This document shows, one piece after another, positions 1 to 24,935 of a DNA stretch of 24,935 nt. Origin of the DNA: a virus; IMG/VR virus record IMGVR_UViG_3300043313_000079, positions 1-24,935 of that record; one strand, 5' to 3'. The first letter of the stretch is position 1. Every line of letters starts with the position of its first letter. The notes beneath the pieces were generated by a model. The model saw only the letters and a list, made by a program, of their open reading frames with translations, was not told the origin of the DNA and did no database searches. The translations under genes were made by a program, and so were the position numbers.

Positions 1-1
1 C

Positions 2-55
2 AATAATGCCTTGCGCGGCAAGTTCGGCATGCAAGAGCGCATGAAGATGAGGTGA
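2..55 (+). CDS. 3' end of an upstream tail gene (partial)
   Basis: An open frame enters from the left edge and stops at TGA 53-55; the visible C-terminus is short and basic (ending GMQERMKMR). The next gene starts five bases later. In phages with this tail order the preceding gene is usually the tape measure protein or a small tail protein, so a tape-measure C-terminus is plausible, but 17 codons cannot show it. Confidence 0.55.
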   Translation, partial: NNALRGKFGMQERMKMR

Positions 56-59
56 CCAC

Positions 60-1007
60 ATGCCCCAAATCTGGCCGACCAACCTGCCACAGCAGTTTGA
101 CAAGGACGGCTACCAAGACAGCTTTGCTGACAACCGTCTGGCCACCAACCCTGAACTTGGCCCGGCGCTGATCAGGTCACGCGTCAGCAACATGCCGCGC
201 AGGGTTGGTGGCGTCATGAAGATGACCAAGGCGCAGCTTGACTATTTTCGCTACTTCTGGCGCACCATGACGCTTGACGGCAAGCTGCCGTTTGAGTTCC
301 CTGACCCGGTGTTCGGCTACGGCTGGCGGCGCAACTGGCTGCCCAACAGCGGCAACGGCGGCGCGGTGATTGGCAGCCCCGGCGTGCTGCCCACAAGCTG
401 GTCTGGCGTGGGCGTGCAGAATGGCGTCAACAAGAGCGTCACCGGCATTGGCGTTGAGGGCTACAGCTACGTTGACGTGCGCTTTCAGGGCGTGCCCACG
501 CAGCCCGCGTCAGGCACCATCAACTCAGCCGAAATATACTTTCACCCCACCGGCACTGCCATCCCGGCGGCCAGCAACCAGTGGTGGACCGCCAGCCTGT
601 ACGCCCGGCTGATGGCCGGGTCACTTACCAACGTGACCCACGTCAGGCTGTTGCAGTATGACAATCCGTACACCACTGGTGTTGGTGTCAATTTCGTTGA
701 CCAGCTTGACGATGACCCGCTGACCAGCCAGCGCTACGAGCAGTCAATGAAGATGCCTGCGGCGGGCGTCAACGGCACGTTTATGCGCTTTCAAATCTAC
801 GCCACCGTTGGCCACGCCATTGACCTGACCATCAGGCTGGCCGCCCCGCAGCTTGAGCGCTACGACCACGCCACAGCCTTCATGCTGACCCCCAATGAGG
901 CCAACCCCATTGCCCGCTTTGCGGCCGGTGGCGCGCCGCCGCAGCCCAGCTTCTTGGGCGGCAACACTTGGGCGGTGAACATGGAACTGGAGATATTTGA
1001 GAAATGA
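60..1007 (+). CDS. Distal-tail-like minor tail protein with an inserted, probably carbohydrate-binding, domain
   Basis: 315 residues. The first 80 residues match the common proteobacterial phage tail family with a WP..LPQ start, a DxGY motif, a charged R-rich middle and a PFEFPDP motif. In that family the chain continues directly to a C-terminal strand ending in W.V...LE; here that strand is residues about 288-315 (GGNTWAVNMELEIFEK). Between them sit about 190 residues (from about 92) beginning NWLPNSGNGG and rich in Gly, Thr and aromatics. This resembles the spike/fibre-type jelly-roll domains that phages insert into virion proteins, so a glycan-binding role on the tail tip is inferred. GAGG lies seven bases before the ATG. 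The stop overlaps the next start as ATGA, so co-translation of tail genes is likely. Confidence 0.75.
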   Translation: MPQIWPTNLPQQFDKDGYQDSFADNRLATNPELGPALIRSRVSNMPRRVGGVMKMTKAQLDYFRYFWRTMTLDGKLPFEFPDPVFGYGWRRNWLPNSGNGGAVIGSPGVLPTSWSGVGVQNGVNKSVTGIGVEGYSYVDVRFQGVPTQPASGTINSAEIYFHPTGTAIPAASNQWWTASLYARLMAGSLTNVTHVRLLQYDNPYTTGVGVNFVDQLDDDPLTSQRYEQSMKMPAAGVNGTFMRFQIYATVGHAIDLTIRLAAPQLERYDHATAFMLTPNEANPIARFAAGGAPPQPSFLGGNTWAVNMELEIFEK

Positions 1008-1516
1008 GCAAGACCACCATCAGCCTCAACTTCAGAACCCAGATGTACTCACAGGAAAGCGCTGAGGTGCCCGTGGCGCTGATACTCATGCGGCACCCTG
1101 ACACCAATGACGTGCTGTACATCTCAGGCGATAACACCGTGCTGCTTGACACTGAGCCTGAATTGGTCTGGGGCACGGTCAGCCGGGGGAAGACGTACAC
1201 CTACCGCCCCCTGAGCCTGCGGCTGCCCACAGACGTTGCAGACCGGCCTCCCCGGATGCACCTGATGGTGGAAAACGTGACCGGGGCCATGGTGGCGTTC
1301 TGCGCCAGCATGATACAGCGCGGCACCTGTGACATTGACATCGTGACGGCCAGCCAGCCTGACATTGTGCAGATACCGTTCCCCATCATGGACATCAGGG
1401 GCTACACCCGCAACTCTGACATCGTGACGTTTGAGATTGGCCTTGACGCGGCTGAAGATGAGCCAATACCGGCTGGGCTGTTCACCCCGGCAGGTTTTCC
1501 GGGCATGTTTGCGTGA
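1004..1516 (+). CDS. DUF1833-like tail protein
   Basis: 170 residues. The order 'distal tail protein, this protein, NlpC/P60 peptidase, J-like protein' is the usual place for the DUF1833 family. The sequence has the family's features: a PPRMHLMVENV segment (about 82-92), a later PDIVQIPFPIMDI strand, and a C-terminus of the form P.P..LFTPAGFPGMF. It probably forms part of the hub connecting the distal tail ring to the tail-tip protein; no catalytic motif is visible. It begins within the ATGA junction of the gene before and ends in a GTGA junction with the next. Confidence 0.75.
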   Translation: MSKTTISLNFRTQMYSQESAEVPVALILMRHPDTNDVLYISGDNTVLLDTEPELVWGTVSRGKTYTYRPLSLRLPTDVADRPPRMHLMVENVTGAMVAFCASMIQRGTCDIDIVTASQPDIVQIPFPIMDIRGYTRNSDIVTFEIGLDAAEDEPIPAGLFTPAGFPGMFA

Positions 1517-1923
1517 AGCCCTGCCTCACCCCGCGTGACTTTGAGGGCTACGTTGGCATACCGTGGCAAGACGGGGGCCGCACGCGGGCAGGGGCCGACT
1601 GCTGGGGACTTTTCAGGCTTGTCTACGCAGAACTGCTGGGCATACCGCTGCCAAGCTATGACGGGGCCTACGGCAGCGCTCTGGACAAGATCATCATCAA
1701 GCGGCTGATTGAGGGCAGGCCCGACTACTGGGTCAGGGTGGCTGACCCGGTGCCCGGTGACGGCGCGCTCATAAACATGGGCAGCCGCCCGCACATTGGC
1801 GTGGTGGTGGGGGCCGGGCGCATGCTACACACTGAACGCTTCGGCGCGGTGATTGAAAGCTACGACGGCCTGCGCTTCAGCACCCAGTTGGAGGGGTTCT
1901 ACCGCTACCATGAAACCCCTTGA
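1513..1923 (+). CDS. NlpC/P60-family tail peptidase
   Basis: 136 residues, GTG start in a GTGA overlap with the previous stop. The papain-like cell-wall peptidase signature is visible: the nucleophile Cys30 in GADCWGLFRLVY and a His94 in RPHIGVVVG, with a GDG loop at 82-84 before it. The length suits the tail-associated NlpC/P60 proteins (the lambda K type) that sit before the J gene. It likely cleaves peptide cross-links of peptidoglycan or matures the tail tip during DNA entry. It overlaps the downstream J-like gene by 14 bases. Confidence 0.88.
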   Translation: MKPCLTPRDFEGYVGIPWQDGGRTRAGADCWGLFRLVYAELLGIPLPSYDGAYGSALDKIIIKRLIEGRPDYWVRVADPVPGDGALINMGSRPHIGVVVGAGRMLHTERFGAVIESYDGLRFSTQLEGFYRYHETP

Positions 1924-4900
1924 GCCGCGCACAGGAGAAATCTACGGGCCTGACACCACAGTCAGGTTCTTCCTGTTCAAGCACGCGCTTCAGGGTGAAC
2001 GCCATGTCTGTGAGGTGCCAGCGGGCCTGAGCATCACTGAGGCGCTTGACCTGAGCATTGAAGACAGCGGCTGGCGTGAGCGCTACCGGCACAGCTTCAC
2101 CATCTTCTTGCAGGATGGCAGCAAGGTGCCTGAGCATATGTGGGACCGCGTGCGGCTGAAGCCCGGCACGGCCTGCGTAGCCCGCCCGGTGGCTGAGGGG
2201 CCGTTCTTGGCCATCATACCGGCGCTGTTGCCCACCGTGCTGGGCGGCCTGTTCACGGGCATGGGCATTTTTGGCCAGTTGCTGCTGGCGGGCATCACCA
2301 TTGGCCTGAAGTTCTTGCTGAACAAGCTGTTCGCGCCCAAGCCCAAGACCCCTACCCCCAGTGACCGCAAAGAAATCTACTCAATCATCGGCAGTCGCAA
2401 TGAAATCACCCAGTGGGAACCTGTGCCGCTGGTCTTGGGCAGGCACCGCATCACGCCGCCGCTGGCTGCCAGCCCGTATACTGAGACGGTAGGTGACGAG
2501 CAGTATCTGCGGCAGTTGTTCTGCAACGGCTACGGCGCGCTGGCCATTGAGGCCAACAGCATCAAGATTGGTGAGACGCTGGTCAGCAGTTATCCTGAAG
2601 CTACACTTGAACACCGCTACGGCTACGCCAGCGACACGGCAACAACGCTGTACCCCAAAGATGTTCTTGAGCAGCCGTTTCAGATAGACCTGTTGAAAAA
2701 TACAAAGGATGCTGAGGGCTACCCCACCGCTACGGTGACGCCTTGGACTGAAAAGAGAACCGCCACCAACACCATCAGTTGCGGCCTTGATTTCTCATGG
2801 CCGCAGGGCCTTGGCGTCATTTCAGATGAGGGTCAGCGCAGCAGCCGTGAGGCCATCATCTATATTCAGTGGCGCAAGGCAGCCACCGAGATACCCCCAG
2901 CGCCCGCTGGCGCATGGTCAGGCAACCTTGTGCTGAAGGTGAGCGCATCCACACAAAAGGCTGTCAGGCGCACGTTCAACATCAGCTTTCCGGTAGCGGC
3001 GCAGTATGACGTGCGCGTGCATAAGGAAAGCCCTGAGATAACCAAGTATTGGGTAGACGCCAACTGGACCGCTCTTGATATGCTGCTGTTCACGGCGCTG
3101 CGCAGCTTCAGAACCGGGGCACCGCTGCGGTTTGCTGACGCGCCGCTGAGCGTCACCGCCCTGCGTATCAGGGCCAGCGGCCAGCTTAACCAGATTGTGG
3201 ACACCTACAACTGCGTTGTGCAGTCACGGGTGGTGGCCTTCAACGGCACCGCTTGGGTGAATGACGTGCCGTCACGCAACCCGGCTGACCTGTTCAGGCA
3301 CGTGCTGACGTGCAAGGCCAACAGGCGGCCCTACGCGGTCACCCAGATTGATCTGCCGCAGCTTCAGAAATGGTGGTCATACTGCGTTGCGCAGAAGTGG
3401 CATTACGACCGCGTGCTGCGCAGCCAGATGAGCGTCTATGACCTGATCATTGAAATCTGCGCGGCCGGGCGCGCCATGCCTGTGTTCAAAGACGGCAAAT
3501 GGTCAGTTGTCTGGGATGAGCAGTCTGTGCCCATCAGCCAGTTGTTCACGCCACGCAATTCATGGAACTTTGAAGAGCAGCGTGATCTTGAGCCAATCCC
3601 GCATGGCTACCGCATGCGCTTCCCCAGTGAAACCAAGGGCTGGCGTGAAGATGAGCGGGTGGTCTACAACGATGGCTACAACAAGGACAACGCCACGCTG
3701 CTTGAAGGCTTTGAGATGCCGGGCGTCACTAACGTTGACAGCATCTGGAAGCACGGGCGCTTTCACCTTGCCCAGCGCATTCTGCGCCCCGGCATTTTCA
3801 GCATCTATGCCGGGTGGGACGCCCTGCCGCTGATCCGGGGTGACCGGGTGCGGGTCAACCATGACAGCTTCAGGTACGGGCTGTACAGCGGGCGCGTGAC
3901 GGCCATCAACGCCGCCGCCCAGACCGTCACCATAGACATCAACGCGCTGCTTGCCGGTGCCACCAACTACATGTTCAGGTTCAGGCTGGCCAGCGGCAGC
4001 TTCCTTGAGCGCACTATAGACCCCGGCTACGTGGGTGAGTACAGCACCATAGGGCTGGTGGGCACCGGCATGCCCATGCCCGCCGTGGGTGACCTGTTCA
4101 GCCTTGGCTACGCCACGCTAGACAGCGAAATCTTCAGGGTTCTGGGCATTGAGCCTGAAGACAATTTTGTGCACCGCCTGATGCTGGTGGCTGACGCGCC
4201 TGAGATAGCTGAGGCAGACACCGGGCAAATCCCTGACTACTCTGAAGGCATCAGCATACCCATCAACCCGTTCACGCTGCCGCCGCGCAACCTGAAGGTC
4301 AGCGATGGCGTCTACGCTGACGGCGGCGGTGTCTACTGGGCCTACCTGTCAGTCAGTTGGGAGCCACCCGCCTACGGCAGGGTCAGTCAGTTCCAGCTAC
4401 AGTACCGTGAGGGCGCTGATGATGATGAGCCGTGGGTGTCTGGCGGGGCGTTTGGCCCCAACGTCACCAACGGTGAAATCAGGCGGCTGGACAGCGGCGT
4501 CTACACCGTGCGCTGCCGCTGCATCTTTGATGACGGCACGTTCTCAACGTGGGGCTACGCGGCGGCCAAGGCCACTGATGAATACAGCATGCCCCCGGCA
4601 GACGTGACTGATTTCCGCATCAATATCACGGGTGATACCTCTATTCTGCGCTGGTCACCCGTGGCGGGCATAGGCATCATTTACGAGATACGCTGGGCAT
4701 CTGAGAGTGTGCCCATACCCGCGTGGAATGCGGCCATTGGCCTGACCACCAGCCTGACTGACAATGCCACCATTGCCACGCGCACCGGCACGTTCTTCAT
4801 CAAGGCCAAGAAGCCTTGGGGCCTGAGCAGCCTGAACGCCAAGATGATCAGCAGTCTGGTGGGCAGCTTCACGCAAATGAATTTTGTGGAGGGCATTGTT

Positions 4901-6795: not shown

Positions 6796-6807
6796 GGGAG
6801 AGAACCC

Positions 6808-10099: not shown

Positions 10100-11602
10100 T
10101 CAAATCCATGCCTCAAGGCCGTCTTGCACCACGGCATGGGCCACGTTGCGCTTGGCGCGCAGCGCCCTGATGATCTTCTCATCCACCGTACCGGGCGTCA
10201 CAAGGTCAACATAGGTGACCGTGCCCACGGTGCCAATGCGGTGGGTGCGGTCTTCTGACTGTTCACGTATTTCCCAGTCATAGCCGTTGCTGTAGTAGAT
10301 GACCAAGGTGCCCGCAGTCCACGTGCGGCCACGGGCACCTGACTGGTCAGTGGCCACCATGAAGCGCCGCCGCCCGGCCTGAAAGTCATTTTCGTAAATC
10401 TCACGCAGGCTGGGCGTGACGCCGCCGTGCCATTCAGCCACGCTGTCAGCCCCGTAGGTGTCAGCCAGCCCCTGCGCCACCAGCGCCGCGTCAGGCCGCC
10501 AGTGGCACCAGATGACCACCTGTTCACCTGAGCCTTCAATGATCTGCTTGACGGCGGCCAAGCGGTTGCTCTTGAGCAGGCGCACTATGCCGTCATCGGT
10601 CTTGACGTGGCCGCAGATCACGCTGTGCATGCGCATAAGCTGGGTGACAACCAATTCGGTTGACACCTCAGCAAAGGTCTTGAGGTGCTTGATTTCCACC
10701 TTGGCCAAAGCAGATACCCGCAACTCCTTATAGACCGTCTCCTGTTCATCAGACAGTTCAACTTCCCAATAGCGGTAGACCTTGGGCGGTAGGTCAAGGC
10801 AGTCAACCTTGCGCCGCCTGAAGCTGTGCAGGGCAACCAGCTTCTGCAACTCCTCAGTGTTGGCGGGGCCAACTTCCTTCTTGATGATGCGCGGGCCAAT
10901 GTTCAGCAGCGCCAGCTTGTTGAAGTGAGCCTGAAACAGCACGAACTTGCTGTAGCCCAGCGGGTTGACGCCCGGCCGCAGAAACTCAAACTGCGCCCAC
11001 AGGTCAGACTGTGAGCCGGTGCTGGGGCTGCCGGTCAGTATGCGCCGCATGGCGGCGCGCTGCGCCAGCTTGTGCAGCAACTTGGTGCGCTTGGCCTTGG
11101 GGTTCTTGATGGTGGTTGATTCGTCAACAATCATCATGGTGCGGTGCGCCTTGCAGAACTGCATGATCAGTTCAGCCGCGTCATTGGTGCTGATGAGGGC
11201 CTCGGTGTTGACCACCAGAATGCGGGGGCTGGGCTGGCTGGTGTCAAGCAGCCACCTGCGCACGTCATAGTCAGCCCGCCGCCGCCCTGAGCGGTACATG
11301 TAGACTCGTGCGGCGTCACGGTGCTTTTCCCACATCCAACGCTGTATCTCACCGGGGTTGTCATGGTCTTGGCGCGCCCAGTTGGTGTAAACGCCCTTTG
11401 GGGCTATGATGACCAGACCGTCAACGCGGTGGTCTTCGTAATTCAGCAAGAAGTCATCAAGCGCAATGCGGCTCTTGCCCAGCCCCATCTCAAGGAAGTA
11501 GGCAAAGAAGTCGCGCCGCCAGCCAATGCTCAGGGCTTCATGCTGGTGGTTGAGCGGGGTGGTGGTGGGGCTGTAGCTGGCGGGGACATCTAGGTGCATC
11601 AT
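10100..11602 (-). CDS. SF2 / SNF2-like DNA helicase
   Basis: 500 residues from ATG 11602; AGGGGAGG lies about ten bases upstream on the minus strand. The frame stays open further upstream, but that part is the intergenic region and lacks helicase sequence. Motifs: Walker A EMGLGKS, Walker B IVDESTTIKN, motif III LTGSPSTGS, a C-terminal helicase half with QSGARGRTW, and motif VI QSEDRTHRIG. The Q.E.R.HRIG form and the DES..IKN box are typical of SNF2-type ATPases encoded in phage replication regions. It probably translocates on or remodels double-stranded DNA in replication or recombination. It is the only minus-strand gene here, so it has separate control. Confidence 0.9.
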   Translation of the reverse strand: MMHLDVPASYSPTTTPLNHQHEALSIGWRRDFFAYFLEMGLGKSRIALDDFLLNYEDHRVDGLVIIAPKGVYTNWARQDHDNPGEIQRWMWEKHRDAARVYMYRSGRRRADYDVRRWLLDTSQPSPRILVVNTEALISTNDAAELIMQFCKAHRTMMIVDESTTIKNPKAKRTKLLHKLAQRAAMRRILTGSPSTGSQSDLWAQFEFLRPGVNPLGYSKFVLFQAHFNKLALLNIGPRIIKKEVGPANTEELQKLVALHSFRRRKVDCLDLPPKVYRYWEVELSDEQETVYKELRVSALAKVEIKHLKTFAEVSTELVVTQLMRMHSVICGHVKTDDGIVRLLKSNRLAAVKQIIEGSGEQVVIWCHWRPDAALVAQGLADTYGADSVAEWHGGVTPSLREIYENDFQAGRRRFMVATDQSGARGRTWTAGTLVIYYSNGYDWEIREQSEDRTHRIGTVGTVTYVDLVTPGTVDEKIIRALRAKRNVAHAVVQDGLEAWI

Positions 11603-11635
11603 GTTACGGTAACCTCCCCTGCGGTTACTGTAAAC
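11603..11635. promoter_or_regulatory. Paired operator-like sites upstream of the minus-strand helicase
   Basis: Two similar near-palindromes, GTTACGGTAAC (11603-11613) and GTTACTGTAAAC (11624-11635), lie 21 bases apart start to start, about two helical turns, so a dimeric regulator could bind both on one face. They flank the ribosome site of the helicase and touch its start codon, so binding would block transcription or translation. Their role is inferred. Confidence 0.45.
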
Positions 11636-11655
11636 GGGGGGTAAGCGGGTCAACC

Positions 11656-11670
11656 GGGGAATTGAACCCC
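11656..11670. repeat. Inverted repeat GGGG-AATTGAA-CCCC
   Basis: A 4-base stem with a 7-base loop in the divergent intergenic region. Read on the minus strand it looks like a tRNA T-arm (GGGG, TTCAATT, CCCC), but no matching acceptor, D or anticodon arms were found around it. It may be a remnant or a simple hairpin. Confidence 0.35.
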
Positions 11671-11741
11671 TATAAGTGTGTGTAGCGTATAGGTAAGTGT
11701 GAAAGCTGAAAGCCTTATATGATATGCGCCCGCGTGATTTT

Positions 11742-11768
11742 TTCACACTGTTCACACTGTTTACACCT
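11742..11768. repeat. Tandem 9-mers in the divergent control region
   Basis: TTCACACTG occurs twice in direct succession (11742-11759), followed by a degenerate third copy TTTACACCT (11760-11768). The surrounding DNA (about 11690-11830) is the most AT-rich noncoding stretch nearby. Such iteron-like repeats can be regulator or replication-initiator sites. The 279-base gap 11603-11881 holds no gene I can support and must carry the promoters for both flanking genes, though no single promoter stands out. Confidence 0.5.
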
Positions 11769-11881
11769 AAATCTTTTTTGGTGCTTACCCCTAAAACGTG
11801 CGCCCACGTATTAAAGGGCTTCAAATCCGCTGGGTGGGAGCGTACCATGCTTCTTGTCAACCCAACGGATAGGCACCCCCA

Positions 11882-12472
11882 ATGACAGATGATGATCTGG
11901 CCGCCACGCTGGCGGCTGAAGCCCAAGCGGCCTCCCCCGGTCTACCGGGGGCACCGCCCACCCTAGAGCGCATGCAACAGCTTGCGGCTGAGGTGGCAGA
12001 CATAGATGACCGCATCGCCAAGAATGAGGCCCGCATCAAAGAACTGGCTGACCGCCGCAATGCCATTGTGTTCAAAGACCTTGTTGAATTGATGGATGAC
12101 GCTCAGGTGGGCAAGCTTGAGGTGGGCGGCTGGGTGTTCAAGGCGGGGCCGTACTACAAGGCGGCCATACCTGTTGAGGACCAGAACCACCCCGGCTATG
12201 CGTGGCTTGAGGCCAATGATGCCGGTGACCTGATCAAAAATCAGGTGGTGCTTGAGTTCCCACGCGGGGCTGAAGATGACGCCAAGCTGGCTGAAGACCT
12301 GTGCCGCAAGCGTTTTCAACAGGCTGATGTGAGCCGCAAGCGTGCGGTGCACTGGGGCACATTGACCAAGTGGCTGAAGGAGACACATGAAGGTGGGCAT
12401 ACCATGCCACCGCTTGATGTGATTGGCGGCACGGTTGGCCGCGTTGTGAAGATAACCAAAGCAAAGGAATGA
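11882..12472 (+). CDS. Conserved phage replication-region protein with N-terminal coiled coil
   Basis: 196 residues. A coiled coil (about 33-62, IDDRIAKNEARIKELADRRN) precedes a mixed domain with WVFKAGPYYKA, WLEANDAGDLIKNQVVLEF and TLTKWLKE. I recall the pattern (coil, then 'WL..N..G.LIK..V' and 'TL..W.KE') from uncharacterised phage proteins encoded next to ssDNA-binding genes. The start codon is preceded only by a weak GGATAGG. It sits first in the rightward replication operon, four bases from the next gene, so a role beside the ssDNA-binding candidate is inferred. Confidence 0.75.
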   Translation: MTDDDLAATLAAEAQAASPGLPGAPPTLERMQQLAAEVADIDDRIAKNEARIKELADRRNAIVFKDLVELMDDAQVGKLEVGGWVFKAGPYYKAAIPVEDQNHPGYAWLEANDAGDLIKNQVVLEFPRGAEDDAKLAEDLCRKRFQQADVSRKRAVHWGTLTKWLKETHEGGHTMPPLDVIGGTVGRVVKITKAKE

Positions 12473-13385: not shown

Positions 13386-13410
13386 GCCCGCCGCCCCATT
13401 GGTGGCGGGC
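13386..13410 (+). terminator. Strong stem-loop between the ssDNA-binding candidate and the primase
   Basis: A 10-pair stem (GCCCGCCGCC with GGTGGCGGGC, one G-U pair, loop CCATT). No T tract follows, so full termination is unlikely; it may reduce read-through or set relative amounts of the abundant binding protein and the rarer primase. It lies 33 bases upstream of the primase ATG. Confidence 0.5.
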
Positions 13411-13443
13411 CACCCCACACTCCAGTTTCTCAAGAGAAGGCAA

Positions 13444-15087
13444 ATGCCCATAGATGAAGCACTGGCGCGCCGGTTCATGGTGCGGTTTGAAGGGTATGCA
13501 GACGCTTACGGAACATACAACAAAGACAAGGCCACGGCAGAAGTCATAGGTGGCAAGGTAGAAATCAGGAGTTCTGCCGTTACCCGGCGCAGGGGGCGCT
13601 ATGAGCCACCGCTTGACTGGCTCAAGCTGTGGCTCAACCACCTGAACGGCGTAGAGCCGCTGGGTGTCATACCGATCAGGGACAACAACACCTGCTACTT
13701 TGGCGTCAATGACATTGATGAGTATGGCGTCATCATAGGGTCACCCCAGCCCCTGCCCGGTGGCGAATTGACGCTGTACCAGCGGTATGACAAGGAAGAC
13801 GCCCCCGTCATCATCAGCAGGAGCAAGTCAGACGCCGCGCACGGCTGGGTATTCTTTGGCACGGCGGTGAGCGCCACGCCGCTGCAACTGTACTTGCAGG
13901 AGACCGCTGCCATGATAGGCTACGGCGGCTCAGAGGTATTCCCCAAACAGCGGCAGGTGGCGCTTGAGCGCGGTGACTTGGGCAGTTGGATCAACATGCC
14001 CTACTTTGGTGACACCCGCTGGGCCGTTGACCGTGAAGGCAACCGCATACCGCCTGACAAGTTCATGGACCTTGTTGAGGCCATGGCCGCCCGGCCCCCG
14101 TGGCTGCTTGAGCGGTACATGAGCAGTAGCAAAGACGGTGAGCAGCAAGCCGGTGAGGCTGAGTTCAAGGATGGCCCGCCCTGCATGCAGCGCCTGAGCG
14201 TGACCGGCATTGGTGAGGGTGCGCGCAATGAGGGCATGATGGCCTTTGGCGTTTTTGCCAAGAAGAAATACCCCAATGATTGGGAAGAGGCTCTGGTGCG
14301 CTGGAACGCCGCCTACTGCAAGCCCAAGCCGCTGCCACCCAGCGAGATAGCTGACATCATCAAGCGGCTGCGCCAGAAGGACTACTACTACCCCTGCAAG
14401 AAGCAGCCCATTGTGGCGCATTGCCAGAGTGCCCTGTGCCGCACGCGCAGGCACGGCGTGGCGTCAGGCACAACTGACATGCTGCCCATCATAGGGGGCA
14501 TGTCAGTGCTGCCCACAGAGCCGCCCCTGTGGTTTCTAGACGTGGGTGAACACCGCCTTGAACTGACCACCGCCAACCTGACCAACTACAAGGCATTCCA
14601 GAACGCGTGCAGTGAGCGGCTGTTTGTGCGCTTTCAGGGCATGACGCAGAAGGCGTGGGATGAGGTGCTGGCCGTTGCCATGCGTGACATCAACAAGATT
14701 GAAGTCACTGAGGAAGTAGGTCTTGGCGGCCAGTTTCATGAGATACTTGAGGACTTTGTCTGCAACCAGCCGCAGGCTGAGACGCGTGATGAAATACTGC
14801 TGGGCAAACCGTGGCTTGACGATGAGGCCAAGAACGCTGATGATCATCGCTATTACTTCAGGCTGAAGCACCTTGAGAACAGCCTGAGTGACGCCAACTT
14901 CAAGGTCTACAGCCGTGGGCAGATAGTAACGCGCCTGCGGGCGCTGGGTGGTGACAACCACGTTCTTGCGCTGAAGGGCAAGAACGCCAAGGAGCGCAAG
15001 AACGTGCGCGTCTGGTGGCTGCCCAAGAGTTTCAGCCAGATCACGCCCACCCCCGTGCCGCCACCCGTACCCCCGGAGCCGATCTGA
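13444..15087 (+). CDS. Archaeo-eukaryotic-type DNA primase (TOTE-like AEP domain)
   Basis: 547 residues from ATG 13444, which follows AGAGAAGG; upstream in-frame codons are hairpin sequence. The AEP fold is recognisable: PLGVIPIRDNNTCYFGVND leading to the catalytic D90-I-D92; SRSKSDAAHGWVFF with His133 (motif II); GGSEVFPKQ (161-169); and GSWINMPYFG (180-189). This matches primase domains of the TOTE type and of phage primases. Cys318, Cys327 and Cys332 probably bind zinc. The C-terminal 150 residues look like a winged-helix region and end in a Pro-rich tail. It should synthesise primers, perhaps with polymerase activity. No replicative polymerase is visible in the window. Confidence 0.85.
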   Translation: MPIDEALARRFMVRFEGYADAYGTYNKDKATAEVIGGKVEIRSSAVTRRRGRYEPPLDWLKLWLNHLNGVEPLGVIPIRDNNTCYFGVNDIDEYGVIIGSPQPLPGGELTLYQRYDKEDAPVIISRSKSDAAHGWVFFGTAVSATPLQLYLQETAAMIGYGGSEVFPKQRQVALERGDLGSWINMPYFGDTRWAVDREGNRIPPDKFMDLVEAMAARPPWLLERYMSSSKDGEQQAGEAEFKDGPPCMQRLSVTGIGEGARNEGMMAFGVFAKKKYPNDWEEALVRWNAAYCKPKPLPPSEIADIIKRLRQKDYYYPCKKQPIVAHCQSALCRTRRHGVASGTTDMLPIIGGMSVLPTEPPLWFLDVGEHRLELTTANLTNYKAFQNACSERLFVRFQGMTQKAWDEVLAVAMRDINKIEVTEEVGLGGQFHEILEDFVCNQPQAETRDEILLGKPWLDDEAKNADDHRYYFRLKHLENSLSDANFKVYSRGQIVTRLRALGGDNHVLALKGKNAKERKNVRVWWLPKSFSQITPTPVPPPVPPEPI

Positions 15088-16604: not shown

Positions 16605-17351
16605 ATGACAACGACCACTTGCCTGCATTGCGGCAAAGCGCTGCCAACTAAAGATACCAGAGCCGTAATGTTTGGGCGCAGTAGCACCGGCTATCATCTA
16701 CCGTGGATAAGAGCAGGTACACGTAAAACCAAATATTGTTCAGAAAAATGTGGGCGGGATTATAAAAACCCACAGAGAGTGCAATACCGGCAGGCGTGCA
16801 AGACATGCGGCAAAGATTTTGTAGGCTACGGTTCTCAATTTTGCTCAAGAAAATGCGCCAACTCTAGACCAGCCCTCTCTAAGCGGCGTGATCATACTGG
16901 TCTGCGATTTCATAACCTTGTTGCTATCAGAAGTGAGGCACGTCGTAAGAAATCTGGGGTAGCCATTATGTGGTGGCTTTGTCAGTGTGATTGTGGAAAT
17001 CAAAAATGGATGGTTGCCAGCCGGATAGGTAAACAAAAATCGTGCGGTTGCTTAGCGGGCCAAAACTTAAGACAGCCGCGTGGTGAAAATTGGCCGCGTC
17101 ATAAAGTATCGCGAGTTTGCATAATTTGTGATGAAATATTTGAAGGGGAAAAATCAAAGAAAAACACATGCTCACCGGAATGTCATAGAATACAGACACA
17201 TAACCGCAAACTAAGAAATGCCCGAGACTACCGCAATCAAGCTTTAACCAACCCACAAGGAGAAAGACAATGGCTCATAAAAAGCAAACACGAACTGACA
17301 AAGATCAAGCGTCTTCTGAAAGAAGGCAGCAACCCGCCCCCAAAAGCCTAG
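16605..17351 (+). CDS. Acquired AT-rich protein with four zinc-binding modules
   Basis: 248 residues. Module 1: Cys6, 9, 45, 49. Module 2: Cys65, 68, 80, 84. Module 3: Cys126, 128, 130, 147, 149 inside 'TGLRF..LVAI...WWLCQCDCGN...KSCGCL' (98-150), the small zinc domain common in phage homing-endonuclease-like and AP2/HNH-associated proteins. Module 4: Cys172, 175, 189, 193. Modules 1, 2 and 4 share the CxxC...CSxxC form. No HNH nuclease core is visible, so it may be a DNA-binding protein rather than an enzyme. GC content is low (18 of 60 bases in 17101-17160), unlike its neighbours, a sign of transfer. There is no good ribosome site at ATG 16605. Its last 82 bases overlap the next gene. Confidence 0.75.
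   Translation: MTTTTCLHCGKALPTKDTRAVMFGRSSTGYHLPWIRAGTRKTKYCSEKCGRDYKNPQRVQYRQACKTCGKDFVGYGSQFCSRKCANSRPALSKRRDHTGLRFHNLVAIRSEARRKKSGVAIMWWLCQCDCGNQKWMVASRIGKQKSCGCLAGQNLRQPRGENWPRHKVSRVCIICDEIFEGEKSKKNTCSPECHRIQTHNRKLRNARDYRNQALTNPQGERQWLIKSKHELTKIKRLLKEGSNPPPKA
17257..17263 (+). promoter_or_regulatory. Strong ribosome site inside the end of the AT-rich gene
   Basis: AAGGAGA lies six bases before ATG 17270. It decides the start of the 100-residue gene, whose first 82 bases are also read as the end of the AT-rich gene, and suggests this start pre-dated the insertion upstream. Confidence 0.65.
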
Positions 17352-17572: not shown

Positions 17573-17573
17573 C

Positions 17574-19621: not shown

Positions 19622-19647
19622 GCGGCCAACACCTGAGGGGCACCGGC

Positions 19648-20490
19648 ATGCGCGTTGATGACATCTGGGTGTTCGCTAGTAAGCGGCACACCATCTACCT
19701 GAAGCGCGCTGCCGGGGCACCCCCGGAAACGTGGACTGATGACCCCATTCTGAAGACCTACCGCTTCTGCAACATGTACCGAGAACTTGACACCGTGACC
19801 GACTGGTTGCGGGTCAACTGGCGTGAGCCGCACGCTGACCACCCAGACTTGTGGCACGCCTTTGTGGTGGCCCGGCACATCAACAACGTGCCCATGCTGA
19901 CGGCGCTGGGCGGCATCACGCTGCCGTGGGACCCCGGTCACTTCATTGACGTGGGCATGGCCCGCAAGCATGCCGGTGAGCGCGTGTGGTCTGCGGCCTA
20001 CATCATTGGCACCCGCACGCCCGGTGACAAGTGCATCTACATTGCCGATAACGTGCTGACCCCCATGTGGCGCAAGCGTGAGCAGATCAGGCCGCAGCAA
20101 GGTGACACGCTGACCAGTTGGCACATGCAGCTTGGCCTGTGGTTTGGCATGGCCAGCTTCATGGCGGCGCAGGTGATTGCGGATATCAAGCACGCCACGC
20201 CCGCGCTGAAAGAAGCCGGTGACTGGTTTACCTTCTGCGCCAGCGGGCCGGGCAGCCGCCGTGGGCTGAACCGCATCTTTGACCGGCCCAAAGACACCCC
20301 GTGGCGTGAAGATGATTTCAGGCTTAAGCTGCTGGCCCTGCGGCAGGAACTGGCCCCGCTGTTTGCCGCTGAGGGCTGGCCGGTGCCTGACGCCCAAGAC
20401 GTGCAGAACATGCTTTGTGAATGGGATAAGTATGAAAGGACGCGCTTAGGTGAGGGCAAGCCCAAGCAACTTTTCAGGCACGGCGTCTGA
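19648..20490 (+). CDS. Alpha-glutamyl/putrescinyl-thymine pyrophosphorylase-like enzyme
   Basis: 280 residues; GAGGGG precedes the ATG. The family signature is clear near the start: ASKRHTIYLKRAAG, then WTDDPILKTYRFCNMYRELD (residues about 29-48), and near the end MLCEWDKYERTRLGEGKPK. This matches the phage family predicted to displace the pyrophosphate from pyrophosphorylated 5-hydroxymethyluracil in DNA and attach an amino donor, as for the hypermodified thymines of phages SP10 and phiW-14. The helix-hairpin-helix-like centre fits a DNA-glycosylase-related fold. The required kinase and hydroxymethylase are not in the window. It overlaps the GIY-YIG gene by one base. The chemistry in this phage is inference. 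Confidence 0.82.
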   Translation: MRVDDIWVFASKRHTIYLKRAAGAPPETWTDDPILKTYRFCNMYRELDTVTDWLRVNWREPHADHPDLWHAFVVARHINNVPMLTALGGITLPWDPGHFIDVGMARKHAGERVWSAAYIIGTRTPGDKCIYIADNVLTPMWRKREQIRPQQGDTLTSWHMQLGLWFGMASFMAAQVIADIKHATPALKEAGDWFTFCASGPGSRRGLNRIFDRPKDTPWREDDFRLKLLALRQELAPLFAAEGWPVPDAQDVQNMLCEWDKYERTRLGEGKPKQLFRHGV

Positions 20491-20963
20491 TGGGCTGGCT
20501 GGTCTGTGAGCGTGGTCTACCGGGCGTCTATGCCATCATGCACGTGTCAGGCGCGGGCTACGTGGGCGGCTCTGCCCGGTGCGTCTACAACCGGCTGACG
20601 TGGCACAGGCACAGGTTGATCAATGGCTTGCACACGTGCAAGGCGCTGCAAGACCTGTGGTCGGCTACCCAGCCTGATGAGTGGCATGTTGAGGTGCTTG
20701 ATGCTGACCCTGAGCGTGAGACGTTTTGGATGGGCCACCCCAAGGTGCTGCTGAACACCATTAAGGACGCCACCGGCAAGACGCGGCGCTGGTCTGAGGC
20801 CACCAAGCAGAAGATGCGTGACGGGCGCGCCCGGTATCTGGCAGACAACCCTGAGGCCCACCATGCCCTTGCAGAAAAAGCCCGCCACCAGCACCGTGAA
20901 GGCAAGCTTGGGCGGCAAACGTGGAAAGCCCAAGCGCAAGCGCAAGAAGCTGAAGCTGAGTAA
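20490..20963 (+). CDS. GIY-YIG nuclease, homing-endonuclease-like
   Basis: 157 residues from a TGATG junction. The GIY-YIG core is visible: GVY at 12-14, YVG at 24-26, Arg30, a Glu in PERETFW (75/77), and LLN (87-89). A TGKTRRWSEATKQKMRDG segment follows, like the NUMOD-type DNA-binding motifs of homing nucleases, and the tail is basic then Ala/Glu-rich. It may be a free-standing mobile nuclease, or process host or phage DNA. It follows the modification gene directly and uses the same codon style as its neighbours, so it is not a very recent arrival. Confidence 0.83.
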   Translation: MGWLVCERGLPGVYAIMHVSGAGYVGGSARCVYNRLTWHRHRLINGLHTCKALQDLWSATQPDEWHVEVLDADPERETFWMGHPKVLLNTIKDATGKTRRWSEATKQKMRDGRARYLADNPEAHHALAEKARHQHREGKLGRQTWKAQAQAQEAEAE

Positions 20964-20966
20964 GCG

Positions 20967-21434: not shown

Positions 21435-21555
21435 CTGGGATCATGTTGAGCCAGCGCCCACGCCGCAAGGCGCGTTCTGGTTTGGCGTGGTTGTAGGCGC
21501 GCTGACTGAGGCCGCGCTGATATTGATCTTTGCCTTCATCTTCTGGGTGCTGTGA
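21421..21555 (+). CDS. 44-residue membrane protein
   Basis: GTG start inside the end of the Cys-rich gene (14-base overlap); the stop forms TGATG with the next gene. A short Pro-rich start (DWDHVEPAPTPQG) leads into one membrane helix (about 19-44, FWFGVVVGALTEAALILIFA). No family recognised. The matching overlaps support it being translated. The start is the weakest part of the call. Confidence 0.5.
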   Translation: MNKYDWDHVEPAPTPQGAFWFGVVVGALTEAALILIFAFIFWVL

Positions 21556-21779
21556 TGAGTGACGCTCAACAACTGTCTATCTGGACGGTCTATGATCATC
21601 CGCGTGATTACCCGCACTGCTACGTGGCGCGACAGTTCAGGGGTGAGCAGCCCACCAACAGCATTCTTATCAGCGCTGATCTTGAGGTGCTGCGTGAAGT
21701 TTTGCTGGTGGACATGGGTCTGACGCGGCTTGAGCGTGACGTGTCTGACGACCCGGTGATCTTGGAGACTTGGCTATGA
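21555..21779 (+). CDS. Small hypothetical protein
   Basis: 74 residues from ATG 21555 in TGATG; the GTG just before it is less likely. Strand-rich: WTVYDHPRDYPHCYVARQF, then TNSILISADLEVLREVL. The 'Y-D-HP-DYP-YVAR' opening is often seen in small phage proteins of unknown role. It ends in ATGA with the next tiny gene. Confidence 0.65.
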   Translation: MSDAQQLSIWTVYDHPRDYPHCYVARQFRGEQPTNSILISADLEVLREVLLVDMGLTRLERDVSDDPVILETWL

Positions 21780-21865
21780 CGGGGTGGACGCCTGAAAAGG
21801 CGGCGGTATGTGTGGCGGCGCTGGTGCTGGTGCTGGCGTTGCTGCTGTGGTTTGGAGTGATCTGA
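21776..21865 (+). CDS. 29-residue membrane peptide
   Basis: ATGA start and TGATG end, fitting exactly between neighbours. After a short polar start (TGWTPEKAA) the rest is one membrane helix of Val, Ala and Leu ending in LLLWFGVI. It could be a small regulator of membrane proteins, but its role is unknown. The exact junctions are the main evidence. Confidence 0.45.
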   Translation: MTGWTPEKAAVCVAALVLVLALLLWFGVI

Positions 21866-22062
21866 TGCCTGAGCGGTTGACGGATTGGTTTGACTGGCCC
21901 GGTGGCCCGGTGCCGCCCATGCCGCCTGAGACGGTGGTGGTGGTGAAGTTCCGTGACGGGCTTGATGGCCGGGGGCGCAAGGTCAAGAGCCTGCGGTGGG
22001 ATCACGTCAATTCACCTGATGACGTGGTGGCCTACCGCTACTGGGTGAGAACCGATGGCTGA
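21865..22062 (+). CDS. Small Pro-rich hypothetical protein
   Basis: 65 residues from ATG 21865 in the TGATG junction; codons upstream belong to the membrane peptide in another frame. A WPGGPVPPMPPET segment precedes a basic strand pair (VVVVKFRDG, GRGRKVKSLRW). The 'PV.P.T.V.VK.RDG' form is common in small phage genes of unknown role. It overlaps the next gene by eight bases. Confidence 0.6.
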   Translation: MPERLTDWFDWPGGPVPPMPPETVVVVKFRDGLDGRGRKVKSLRWDHVNSPDDVVAYRYWVRTDG

Positions 22063-22279
22063 AGAGCCTGACGCAGACGGCACGGCATATGACGCTGCCT
22101 TGGACCTGTTGTTTGGTGCGGCCTATGAGATTGCCAAGCAGCACGGCGTCTGCCCGGCCTGCCTGATCATCAACGCCGGTACGCTCATGGAAAGCGCCGC
22201 CGCTGAGGGCAAGCCGGTGCACGGCCTGCCTGTTGAGGCGGCTGACGGCGATGATGATGAAATTCGCGTAAACCACTAA
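22055..22279 (+). CDS. Small acidic protein with a CPAC motif
   Basis: 74 residues. An acidic start, a helix (YDAALDLLFGAAYEIAKQHG), then CPAC and LIINAGTLMESA, and an acidic end (DGDDDE). A single CxxC is too little for a full zinc site unless it dimerises; redox use is possible but unsupported. It ends before a noncoding gap of 68 bases. Confidence 0.6.
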   Translation: MAEEPDADGTAYDAALDLLFGAAYEIAKQHGVCPACLIINAGTLMESAAAEGKPVHGLPVEAADGDDDEIRVNH

Positions 22280-22286
22280 ATATCGC

Positions 22287-22316
22287 TTTACAATCAGGCA
22301 TGAAGGATGCTACTTA
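22287..22316 (+). promoter_or_regulatory. Candidate promoter before the 22348 gene
   Basis: TTTACA (22287-22292), an 18-base spacer and TACTTA (22311-22316). It sits in one of the few true gaps of this gene-dense part. The -10 match is poor, but the upstream 10-mer TCGCTTTACA (22283-22292) recurs exactly before the last helicase gene. Confidence 0.4.
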
Positions 22317-22347
22317 GGGGACTCAACCCCCTTTGGAGCCAACCCAA

Positions 22348-22743
22348 ATGTTTGAACTTTTCTCAACCAACCTCTACCCCCACCTTGATGCCCGCACCGC
22401 CAACTGGGTCATCGCCTTTGATGAAGACGGGCGCTACTACGTAGACCACACGCCCGGCTCTGACTTCTGGGTGCCGGTGCCCTACGCCTACGCCACCCGT
22501 GAGGGCGCTGAGGCTGGCATTGCCGCCATCAAGGCGTGGGAGGCCCCTGTGGCCGCTGGTGAAGACGTGCTGAGCCTTGAGGCCCTGCGCGCCACGCCAG
22601 AGTGGGCAGCCCTGCTGACCCACGTGCACATGCGCCAAGCCATTGTGCCTGACCTGAGCATATTTGATTTCAACGTGGAGATCATGCCCGGTGCCTATGA
22701 CCACTACCGCGCCATCACCCTTGCTGGCGCGCAGGTGCTGTGA
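22348..22743 (+). CDS. Hypothetical protein
   Basis: 131 residues from ATG 22348, with GGAG nine bases upstream; a TTG five codons earlier is less likely. Sequence: an aromatic start (FELFSTNLYPHLD), a beta hairpin (WVIAFDEDGRYYVDHTPGSDFW) and later helices. No domain recognised. First gene after the candidate promoter, so it probably leads a small operon running to 23957. Confidence 0.68.
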   Translation: MFELFSTNLYPHLDARTANWVIAFDEDGRYYVDHTPGSDFWVPVPYAYATREGAEAGIAAIKAWEAPVAAGEDVLSLEALRATPEWAALLTHVHMRQAIVPDLSIFDFNVEIMPGAYDHYRAITLAGAQVL

Positions 22744-23072
22744 TGGCCAAATCCACAGTGATCATTGAATGGCTGGTTGAGGTGCTTGAGGCACCTGACG
22801 CCGATGGTGACGGTGACATCTATGAGACAACCGTCTGTGACACCTACGCTGAGGCCGTGAGGATGGCAGCGCAACTGTGTGAGGCCCACAGCCTGCACCA
22901 CCACCGCATTGGGCTGGTGCGTGACCGGGGCAATGACATTGAGGGCATCATAGACCGCCAGTGGGCCTACGTGGGGCCTGACGGCAAACTGCCCACCCAC
23001 TTTGACTGGTGCGGTGGTGAGACTGGCGGTGCAATGGTGCCCGCCAGATATCATAAGGAACTAAGATCATGA
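22743..23072 (+). CDS. Hypothetical protein
   Basis: 109 residues from ATG 22743 in TGATG. Alpha/beta start (STVIIEWLVEVLEAP), an acidic loop (DADGDGD), and a His-rich helix end (EAHSLHHHRIGLV). The bases 22741-22920 show the strongest TGA bias I counted in the window. No function proposed. Confidence 0.65.
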   Translation: MAKSTVIIEWLVEVLEAPDADGDGDIYETTVCDTYAEAVRMAAQLCEAHSLHHHRIGLVRDRGNDIEGIIDRQWAYVGPDGKLPTHFDWCGGETGGAMVPARYHKELRS

Positions 23073-23341
23073 ACAACGACCGCCGCAAGAGCATCACCAA
23101 GCTGCATGCTGAACTTGACACGCTGAAGAGCGCGCTTGAGGATTTGCGTGACCAGATAGACACCCTGAAGGGTGAAGAGGAAGACGGGTTCAACAACCTG
23201 CCTGAGGGCCTTCAGCAGTCTGAGCGCGGGCAGGCCATGGAAGAAGCCACCAATCAGCTTCAGACCGCCTATGACGCCGCTGACAGCGCCGTCAGCAGTC
23301 TGGATGAGGCCCTGACCGCCCTTGATGACGCGGGGCAGTGA
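23069..23341 (+). CDS. Small acidic coiled-coil protein
   Basis: 90 residues from an ATGA junction. Two heptad-rich helices (about 8-38, LHAELDTLKSALEDLRDQID, and 54-88, with QLQTAYDAADSAVSSL) joined by an EEEDG turn form a likely antiparallel hairpin. The N-terminus is basic. Such proteins often bind partners or mimic DNA, but no specific family is recognised. Confidence 0.65.
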   Translation: MNNDRRKSITKLHAELDTLKSALEDLRDQIDTLKGEEEDGFNNLPEGLQQSERGQAMEEATNQLQTAYDAADSAVSSLDEALTALDDAGQ

Positions 23342-23343
23342 CC

Positions 23344-23628
23344 ATGCGCCGTCACCTGTTGACCCCCGCGCCGAACCTGAACGGCAACACCGCTGAAAGC
23401 TTGCTCACCCAACTGGGTGAGGTGCTGACGGCCCTGCATGGCCTTGAGAAGGCCATGCGCGGTGCCAGTGATTGCTGGCACGGCAGAAATTTCCAGACCA
23501 TGCCGCACGGGCCTGAGGCCCAGCGCAGTGCGCAGGCGGCGTGGCATGAGCGCTTTGAGTGGCTGGGCCAATTTGAGCGTGAGATTGAGGATATGCGGCT
23601 GGGCATCCAGCAGAAAGAAGGCAAGTAA
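23344..23628 (+). CDS. Small helical hypothetical protein
   Basis: 94 residues from ATG 23344; GTG 23338 (two codons more, in a GTGA overlap) is an alternative. Helical (LLTQLGEVLTALHGLEKAM) with a Trp/His-rich middle (DCWHGRNFQTMPHG). The end overlaps the next gene in TAATG. Confidence 0.62.
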   Translation: MRRHLLTPAPNLNGNTAESLLTQLGEVLTALHGLEKAMRGASDCWHGRNFQTMPHGPEAQRSAQAAWHERFEWLGQFEREIEDMRLGIQQKEGK

Positions 23629-23957
23629 TGTGGTTCTGTTTTAACGACGCGTTTGTCAGTGCTGTGCAAGACAAAGACCGGCCCGGCCACCTGCTGGTGC
23701 GCGCCCGGCGCAAGGCGCACCTGACCAAGCTGTTCCCCAAGATGAAGGTCATGGAGACCACCAAGCGTGACTACCGCTGGCGCGTCAGCGTGCCCGCCAA
23801 GGTCTGGGCTGATCTGGTGGCCCAGCGCATCATGGCCATTGACTACGCCAACTTCAAGGACAGCGTGCGTGAGCATGCGCTGCATGACATGTACGCCCTG
23901 TGGTGGAATGATCATTACCGCTACCAGACCGACCGGCAACGGCAGGCGTGGGGCTGA
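23628..23957 (+). CDS. Conserved small phage protein of unknown role
   Basis: 109 residues from a TAATG junction. The layout 'FNDAFVSAVQDKDRPGHLLVRARRKAHL', a DYRWRVSVP strand, and 'IDYANFKDSVRE...MYALW' near the end is a recurrent phage family in proteobacteria, always uncharacterised as far as I know. Rich in Arg and aromatics, no zinc or membrane features. It closes the operon that begins at 22348; a 110-base gap follows. Confidence 0.72.
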   Translation: MWFCFNDAFVSAVQDKDRPGHLLVRARRKAHLTKLFPKMKVMETTKRDYRWRVSVPAKVWADLVAQRIMAIDYANFKDSVREHALHDMYALWWNDHYRYQTDRQRQAWG

Positions 23958-23990
23958 GCGACTTTTCTTCAGCGGGGTCCATTTAGTCGC

Positions 23991-24020
23991 TTTACATGGG
24001 GGTCGCTTATGACGTATACG
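23991..24020 (+). promoter_or_regulatory. Candidate promoter of the right-end helicase gene
   Basis: TTTACA (23991-23996), an 18-base spacer and TATACG (24015-24020): five of six and four of six bases match the sigma-70 consensus boxes. The 10-mer TCGCTTTACA (23987-23996) is shared with the candidate at 22283. GTCGCTT is repeated 16 bases later. Transcription would begin near 24027, at the foot of a stem-loop. Confidence 0.5.
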
Positions 24021-24022
24021 AG

Positions 24023-24052
24023 ATGTACCGGGGCGCTGGTGCCCCGGCACAT
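24023..24052 (+). other. 5' stem-loop upstream of the helicase
   Basis: ATGTACCGGGGC pairs with GCCCCGGCACAT around the loop GCTGGT: 11 pairs and one A-C mismatch. It ends four bases before the GAGG ribosome site (24056-24059). No clean T tract follows. It could be an attenuator or a 5' cap-like structure that stabilises the message. A 20-codon ORF (24009-24071) covers it and ends in ATGA with the helicase start. Confidence 0.5.
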
Positions 24053-24067
24053 TTTGAGGTTTTCACC

Positions 24068-24935
24068 ATGACCACCACCAAAGTTTTTACCCCTTCACCT
24101 GAGCAGGCCCAGTTTCTTGACTGGATTTCTAACGGCAGCGGTAGCTGCGTGCTTGAGGCGGTTGCCGGTGCAGGCAAGACCACCACGCTGCTTGAAGGCG
24201 TCAAGCGCATGAAGGGCGAGGTTTTTCTGGGTGCCTACAACACCAAGATGGCTGCTGAGTTGAAGCAGAAGCTGGCGGCCATGGGCCTGCCCAACAAGGG
24301 CGCTGACGGCAAGAATGCCGCCACCTTTCACAGCGCGGGCATGAGCGCCCTGCGCAGCGCCAACAAGGCCATTCAGGTCAATGACAAGAAGGTGCGTGAC
24401 ATCGTTGACGGTCTGGTCAAGAGCCAGAGCGGCGTCTTTGCCGTGCGTGACGCTGCTGACGGTGAAGTCACCGCCATTTGCCAGTTGGTTGGCCTTGCCA
24501 AGCAGACCGGCTTTGGCGTTGACAATCTGGTGCCGGTTGTGAAGCCCAGCTACTGGGTTGAACTGATCAACCGCCATGACGTGGCTGACCGCCTGCCTGA
24601 TGACTATCAGGTGGCTGATCTGGTCACCACCGCTGAGCGGGTGCTGGCGCTGAGCAACGCTGACCGTGACACCATTGACTTTGATGACATGTGCTACCTG
24701 CCGCTGTTGCGCCGCCTGCGCTTCTGGCCCAAGGATTGGGTGCTGATTGATGAGGCGCAAGATACCAACGCCGTGCGCCGTGAGATTGCGCGCAAGATGC
24801 TGCGCCCGCACACTGGCCGCCTGATTGCCGTGGGTGATCCCCATCAGGCCATTTTTGGGTTCACGGGCGCTGACAACCAGAGCCTTGATCTGATCCGCAA
24901 GCTGTTCAACGCCAGCACGCTGGCGCTGAGCGTTA
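24068..24935 (+). CDS. SF1 UvrD/Rep-like helicase (5' part; runs off the window)
   Basis: The first 289 codons are present and open to the right edge. The start has GAGG eight bases upstream. Visible motifs: a Q-motif-like start (FTPSPEQAQFLDWI), Walker A AVAGAGKTTT, a motif Ia region (AYNTKMAAELKQKL), FHSAG, Walker B LIDEAQDTN, and motif III AVGDPHQAIFGFTGA. Motifs IV-VI must lie beyond the edge. The layout (short insert between Ia and II, FDDMCYLPL before Walker B) resembles phage Dda/UvrD-like helicases. It is the second SF1 helicase here and differs clearly from the one at 17574, so they probably do different jobs. Confidence 0.88.
   Translation, partial: MTTTKVFTPSPEQAQFLDWISNGSGSCVLEAVAGAGKTTTLLEGVKRMKGEVFLGAYNTKMAAELKQKLAAMGLPNKGADGKNAATFHSAGMSALRSANKAIQVNDKKVRDIVDGLVKSQSGVFAVRDAADGEVTAICQLVGLAKQTGFGVDNLVPVVKPSYWVELINRHDVADRLPDDYQVADLVTTAERVLALSNADRDTIDFDDMCYLPLLRRLRFWPKDWVLIDEAQDTNAVRREIARKMLRPHTGRLIAVGDPHQAIFGFTGADNQSLDLIRKLFNASTLALSV

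Follow-up and report, generated by a model that had tools for sequence, protein, structure and literature searches.

A narrow phage lineage under selection against CGA and GGA, perhaps to evade an enzyme with a three-base-pair target

Why should a virus avoid the words CGA and GGA throughout its DNA and use TGA to excess? The question is raised by virus record IMGVR_UViG_3300043313_000079, of which positions 1-24,935, the entire stretch of 24,935 bases analyzed here, are referred to as the window. On both strands together, and relative to an expectation from dinucleotides, the window holds 124 CGA/TCG where 562 are expected, 255 GGA/TCC (645 expected), 1377 TGA/TCA (709 expected), and 624 AGA/TCT (464 expected). 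With S standing for C or G, the avoided word is SGA, or TCS on the opposite strand. We find that it is avoided by selection, and attribute this, with moderate confidence, to evasion of an enzyme whose target in double-stranded DNA (dsDNA) is SGA/TCS, probably a host nuclease. A sequence-only reading had earlier proposed a window-wide preference for TGA and TCA with avoidance of CGA and GGA, and the counts here, together with the codon shuffles below, bear it out; its tallies over three sampled stretches (1021-1200, 14521-14700, and 22741-22920) were also exact, at 28 TGA, 2 CGA, 4 GGA, and 8 AGA, and at 9 TCA, 0 TCG, 2 TCC, and 5 TCT. The bias is evenly spread along the window (25 bins of 1 kb), and contexts of four bases around SGA and TGA contribute little to it there. 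The features concerned are as follows.

1-24935 (no strand assigned): CGA/TCG and GGA/TCC avoided, TGA/TCA in excess, and many restriction-type words lost (trinucleotide counts, codon shuffles, word counts)
10100-11926, minus strand: DNA helicase gene (phrog_62), biased when read along its own coding strand (phrog match, counts)
13399-15087, plus strand: primase gene (phrog_21866), used for finding relatives (phrog match)
16605-17351, plus strand: AT-rich insert, less strongly biased and similar to HNH endonucleases (phrog_374; phrog match, counts)
19648-20490, plus strand: 5-hydroxymethyldeoxyuridine (5-hmdU) DNA kinase-like gene, a marker of thymine hypermodification that occurs also in unbiased relatives (PF18723)

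Codon shuffles, the check that the sequence-only reading had itself proposed, did not reproduce the TGA excess. Over 34 coding sequences (7612 codons) and 300 shuffles in which protein and codon use were kept, TGA was found 1259 times against 680 in the shuffles (z +38.2), CGA 105 times against 728 (z -30.6), and GGA 227 times against 605 (z -24.8). Both words of each complementary pair (CGA and TCG; GGA and TCC) were affected on the coding strand, and most of the effect is borne by the codon junction N|GA, with 591 T|GA against 163 in the shuffles (z 44). The minus-strand helicase gene, in which the bias had already been seen, carries 54 TGA, 8 CGA, 46 TCA, and 1 TCG on its own coding strand. 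In the intergenic gaps of the window, TGA makes up 82 of the 144 NGA words, CGA 9, and GGA 20. The depletion therefore exceeds that of a control preserving both protein and codon use, and it is strand-symmetric and present in non-coding DNA, which are the marks of target-word avoidance. A bias that is intergenic, strand-symmetric, and codon-controlled is also hard to explain through mRNA or translation alone.

The third base of the codon responds closely to what follows it. At four-fold degenerate sites before GA, T occupies 388 of 499 positions (78%), compared with 62/371, 65/298, and 38/279 before GC, GG, and GT, respectively (14-22%), and a mere 2/214 before CC and 1/195 before CG. Of all codons before GA in the window, 591/912 (65%) end in T, so the tendency claimed by the sequence-only reading is real although its "nearly always" was slightly strong. 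Its claim that the arginine codon AGG appears mainly after NTC was accurate: 38 of the 63 AGG codons follow NTC, and AGG serves 38 of the 48 arginines after an NTC codon, compared with 63 of 503 arginine codons overall.

Eight records carry the bias: the window and those designated G003, G004, G008, and G078, together with three in which it is weaker, G002, G001, and G009. They represent at most seven viruses because G003 is identical to the window across 14,302 aligned bases. G004 (79,594 bases) is circularly permuted relative to the window and shares 72-90% nucleotide identity with it, block by block. A bias index was defined as log2[(CGA x GGA)/(TGA x AGA)], each word being taken as observed over expected. 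The index lies between -4.9 and -4.7 in the window (-4.9), G004, and G008, is -5.1 in G003, and runs from -3.2 to -2.5 in G002, G001, and G009. Among 132 bacterial loci, the mean was -0.23 (standard deviation 0.36, minimum -1.15), and among 171 other viral or plasmid records, the lowest of which are AT-rich, it was -0.23 (standard deviation 0.42, minimum -1.53); most viral loci of this census were found via kinase or TerL searches and are not a random phage sample. The census took sequences of at least 4,000 bases, leaving out 8 of 140 bacterial loci and some viral ones; its 60 genome pieces were each taken from the start of contig 1 of a genome, and genes of environmental records were the longest non-overlapping open reading frames, taken without a gene finder.

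Most records of the clade are fragments, and the TerL tree takes in four of the eight biased ones. These four group together (98/94), with the unbiased G012 and G007 just outside, so a narrow lineage gained the trait, unless its neighbors lost it. G007, whose TerL is 82% identical to that of G004, has no trinucleotide bias and keeps CCWGG intact; its contig is without the modification region discussed below (L196-L198). TerL has its relatives mainly in Alphaproteobacteria and in phages and plasmids of that class, with 43-55% identity in genome_contigs and a maximum of 58.5% for a Rhodoplanes plasmid. Two other possible clues to the host were sought: the tail protein had no relative in genome_contigs, and seven pieces from the clade yielded no tRNA genes.

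Selection is apparent when the members and their relatives are aligned. G004 and G012 were compared at 402 aligned four-fold sites that precede a conserved GA: G004 has T in 35/49 of those where G012 has A, in 105/132 of those with C, in 80/124 with G, and in 77/97 with T; transversions to T are thus almost as common as C to T. Once in place, this T is also held. Discordance of T at four-fold sites between G004 and G008 was 1/285 before GA against 10/208 before GC, GG, or GT (p 0.001); between G004 and G078, it was 51/461 against 80/256 (p 8e-11), and between the window and G004, 36/312 against 61/141 (p 2e-13). The T of TGA is therefore conserved 3- to 12-fold better than other T in three of the four biased pairs, and the unbiased pair G012-G007 shows no such contrast (56/76 against 79/121). 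A raised rate of C to T would by itself leave the loss of T unchanged. The avoidance of SGA/TCS, which is strand-symmetric, extends outside genes, and is confined to one lineage, is selection and not mutation bias: all other bases alike are replaced by T, and the T is conserved.

The shape of the preference was obtained from a conditional logit of synonymous choice on strand-symmetric trinucleotides. For the window, G004, G002, G001, and G012, in that order, the weights were +1.17, +1.20, +0.93, +0.81, and -0.08 for TGA; +0.19, +0.11, -0.13, -0.24, and -0.27 for AGA; -1.10, -1.14, -0.74, -0.70, and -0.23 for GGA; and -1.51, -1.55, -1.05, -0.87, and +0.03 for CGA. For CGA, GGA, and TGA, the weights in the unbiased relatives G012, G007, and G014 stayed between -0.23 and +0.19. 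The order before GA is thus graded, T > A > G > C; across members, the penalty on G and C rises, the margin of T over A remains similar, and the T minus A contrast exceeds that of the unbiased relatives by ~0.7-0.8 in all clade members fitted. Moving from dinucleotides to trinucleotides improved the held-out log-likelihood per codon from -0.965 to -0.825 in G004, compared with -1.130 to -1.116 in G012, and moving on to tetranucleotides in G004 brought a small gain (-0.823 to -0.803). With little gained beyond three bases in G004, the unit of preference is three bases. A longer hidden motif was considered and rejected: tetranucleotide residuals for SGA are modest, and the gains at five and six bases come mainly from restriction-like words.

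Such words are massively lost from the same genomes. Against synonymous resamples of the coding sequence that already contain the trinucleotide preferences, G004 has (observed/expected) CCWGG 0/274, GCCGGC 0/126, GGCGCC 0/93, CCGCGG 0/65, CAGCTG 0/60, CTGCAG 0/37, and GANTC 5/71, and further words are also gone; the window has CCWGG 0/86, GCCGGC 0/30, and GGCGCC 0/27, and contains no copy of CCWGG, GCCGGC, GGCGCC, CCGCGG, CTGCAG, or GAGCT. Over whole records, CCWGG is absent from the window, G003, G004, G008, G078, and G002, and occurs once in G001, 90 times in G012, and 125 times in G007. We also observed that the non-palindromic GAGCT/AGCTC is near-absent in the strong subclade only (window 0, G003 0, G004 2, G008 0, G078 2); G002 and G001 have 42 and 28 copies, respectively. 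Phages commonly lose palindromes: for those of 6 bp, G004 has an observed/expected ratio of 0.49 and the window one of 0.46, compared with 0.67 for G012, 0.73 for G007, and 0.43 for phage YuA; YuA, CN1, and SN1 range from 0.43 to 0.51 and have no SGA bias. In G004, 6-bp palindromes with TC/GA only have all but disappeared (14 against 72 expected) whereas those with TG/CA are mostly tolerated (425 of 545), a split that is not seen in G012 (0.73 and 0.73). This loss of words points to strong restriction pressure, but by itself it does not explain the avoidance of SGA.

Two other features of the window may be described here. The AT-rich insert at 16605-17351 has 26 TGA among 71 NGA words, against 1351/2303 in the rest of the window, and 16/71 SGA against 363/2303; the earlier tally of 4 TGA among 12 within 16861-17100 was correct. 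The weaker bias may reflect late arrival of the insert, and its lower G+C content (0.46) may account for part of it. The insert is identical in G003, and no homologue was found in the G004, G002, or G001 pieces compared. Directly 3' of the kinase gene, the product of the gene at 20490-20963 resembles a GIY-YIG nuclease by eye; it had no family match, and it has a 79% identical homologue in G002 and none found in G004.

What would select against so short a word? We propose that strong selection on dsDNA has acted, and still acts, against SGA/TCS in this lineage, and that it has rewritten synonymous codons so as to place T, less often A, before GA. The selecting agent would be an enzyme, harmful to the virus, with a target of three base pairs in dsDNA, most likely a defence nuclease of the host; in one form of this proposal, it would be a modification-dependent nuclease reading a hypermodified T followed by CS (T*CS). 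That form is attractive in that modification-dependent enzymes are known to read contexts as short as this (PMC3874153) and published restriction data locate hypermodified thymine at TC and TG steps (PMC6449724). The restriction sites missing from these genomes fit a virus engaged in evading host nucleases. Of the three causes suggested by the sequence-only reading, evasion of host nucleases is the best supported, through the selection on a dsDNA word and the massive loss of restriction sites, although the nuclease remains putative. Several points weigh on the other side. The preference for T over A is not explained by SGA avoidance alone. In the G002-G001 pair, conservation of T before GA was not significant (17/91 against 15/55, p 0.3). 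G012, G007, YuA, CN1, and SN1 avoid palindromes and have no SGA bias, so the two avoidances need not share a cause. Finally, a plain 3-bp target of the form SGA is not known to us for any restriction enzyme. The more specific claim, that a 3-bp TCS/SGA enzyme exists, being either a host nuclease that reads hypermodified T*CS or a clade-specific phage enzyme, and that it drove the synonymous rewriting next to GA, is accordingly put forward as a tentative one, rather less probable than evasion in general.

The best surviving alternative is that enzymes of this lineage prefer to hypermodify T in TGA/TCA and that the virus gains from having many such sites. The window kinase gene product matches PF18723 (E 2.2e-35). 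G004 also encodes a thymidylate synthase (TS)-like enzyme, a myo-inositol-phosphate synthase (MIPS)-like enzyme, a dual-specificity phosphatase, and PolA, with a weak match to an amino acid:DNA transferase (PF18724, E 0.018) and a P-loop protein having weak matches. The TS-like protein (PF00303) is found in G004 (8e-20) and G002 (8e-23) and not on the 25-kb window, and that of G004 is 37% identical to YuA gp17. A modified T is placed at TG and TC steps by restriction data in parts of two published reports (PMC6449724, PMC7653180), and T is indeed favored over A before GA. However, the 80 kinase-bearing loci that came from one scan are all free of the SGA bias (lowest CGA 0.63, highest TGA 1.42), and the same is true of 13 further kinase phages or loci (YuA, Sonora, CN1, SN1, phiW-14, and eight more loci), so the comparison suggested by the sequence-only reading, with phages bearing thymine-modification genes, went against the first of the three causes that it had listed. 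The collinear relative G012 (78,961 bases) is likewise unbiased (TGA 1.03, CGA 1.02, GGA 0.87), although it has homologues of the kinase (63%, part matched), MIPS (66%), TS (56%), PolA (72%), and TerL (79%), and G013 has the same order of modification genes in 9.5 kb and is unbiased. As these two carry the hypermodification genes, the pathway alone is not the cause. Words in which T precedes GA are purged no less severely than the others, with TGANTC at 3 against 82 expected (TGAATC 0/22, TGATTC 0/24, TGACTC 1/18, TGAGTC 2/17) and TGAGCT at 1 against 71, which argues against a protective T*GA. As a general explanation, hypermodification context was therefore rejected because kinase phages and loci are without the bias, and in its lineage-specific form we consider it unlikely.

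The genes themselves are of some interest. In G004, a putative thymine-hypermodification operon at L029:4203-9332 (G004 24203-29332) consists of the MIPS-like gene (PF01658), the weak amino acid:DNA transferase match, the dual-specificity phosphatase, the P-loop protein, and the TS-like gene; homologues are present in G002, G012, and G013. Judged from its genes, its product may be an inositol-linked thymine. A list of G012 genes lacking a clade homologue includes a single one inside the modification cluster, a radical-SAM gene at 68329-69294 (minus strand, L282), which had no match in the records searched (G000, G001, G002, G004, G013, G014, and G078, with G013 represented by 9.5 kb). Given this gene, the final modified base of G012 may differ from that of the clade.

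Two further alternatives are each clearly improbable, and about equally so. In the first, SGA/TCS would be the protospacer-adjacent motif (PAM) of the host's main CRISPR (clustered regularly interspaced short palindromic repeats) system, depleted to remove targets. Selected, strand-symmetric depletion of short motifs is described for PAMs in passages of two papers (PMC4246573, PMC12174588). Yet T is preferred over A as well, which goes beyond avoidance of one word, and the candidate PAM is not tied to any host or CRISPR system; we know of no PAM of the form SGA/TCS. In the second, an enzyme of the phage lineage itself would act on SGA/TCS, for example in damaging host DNA, and the virus would avoid its own target. 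The candidate is a 231-amino-acid KptA-like gene, present in all three biased records that cover the region (G004, G002, and G078) and not in G012 or G007; it is the one sizeable gene with this distribution, and its similarity to KptA is weak (E 0.06-0.15). Against this, the protein has no significant fold match (best E 1.0), its models are of low confidence (predicted local distance difference test, pLDDT, 36 and 48), the window contig does not include the region, and an activity on DNA is purely hypothetical, so the gene is treated as a lead. It lies at L029:18581-19276 (minus strand; G004 38581-39276), and its product has the N-terminal pattern LYHGT...GLxPRG; although it has no significant family match, it is a possible ADP-ribosyltransferase.

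Mimicry of the codon pairs or composition of the host, the remaining cause raised by the sequence-only reading, is very improbable. None of the 132 bacterial loci, among which the true host need not be represented, comes near the window (index at or above -1.15 against -4.9), the close relatives G012 and G007 are unbiased, and intergenic DNA is biased; host codon-pair bias was accordingly rejected as a general explanation. Least probable of all is a mutation bias such as C to T at CGA and TCC, for which it can be said that CGA to TGA and GGA to AGA are transitions, but which was rejected as a general explanation because A and G became T about as often as C did, the T in TGA is far better conserved than T elsewhere, and G012, with homologous polymerase and modification genes, is unbiased.

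The purge is 2.5- to 7-fold and genome-wide, with T at 74-78% of four-fold sites before GA, and is far outside the range of the 132 bacterial and 171 other viral or plasmid records examined. Evasion of a dsDNA-reading enzyme, if correct, suggests that recognition of no more than three base pairs can be enough for an enzyme to put a whole phage genome under selection. SGA/TCS provides a precise word with which to seek that enzyme, and G012, a collinear unbiased relative of 79 kb, allows a direct comparison.

A search of open-licence papers returned PAM depletion, restriction-site avoidance, and hypermodified phages, and no comparable trinucleotide purge. As in restriction-site (palindrome) avoidance in phages, short words are here selected against on both strands and independently of codon use, and the clade genomes are also without CCWGG, GCCGGC, GGCGCC, CCGCGG, CTGCAG, and others. 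Their main word, however, is 3 bp long, non-palindromic, and impossible to eliminate, and it matches no enzyme target known to us; the palindrome-avoiding phages YuA, CN1, and SN1, unlike the clade, do not avoid SGA. PAM depletion in phages, as described in parts of Kupczok and Bollback (2014, PMC4246573) and Ortega-Sanz et al. (2025, PMC12174588), likewise concerns a short, strand-symmetric dsDNA motif depleted by selection, but the clade prefers T over A and does not merely avoid one word, and no PAM is tied to it. With the thymidine-hypermodified phages M6, YuA, ViI, and phiW-14, the window shares a 5-hmdU DNA kinase homologue and its sister G004 the TS-like, MIPS-like, and PolA genes; YuA and phiW-14 differ in showing no SGA avoidance. 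Modification-dependent enzymes (MspJI, AspBHI, and LpnPI) read a modified base with one to three context bases, according to a portion of PMC3874153, which would be the right size for TCS: MspJI reads mCNNR and AspBHI reads YSmCNS. The MspJI-family examples in that portion differ in that they read modified cytosine, and Flodman et al. (PMC6449724) write that they themselves had come across none against modified T; nor was one found in the present analysis. Should the enzyme proposed here indeed read hypermodified thymine, it would belong to that very class.

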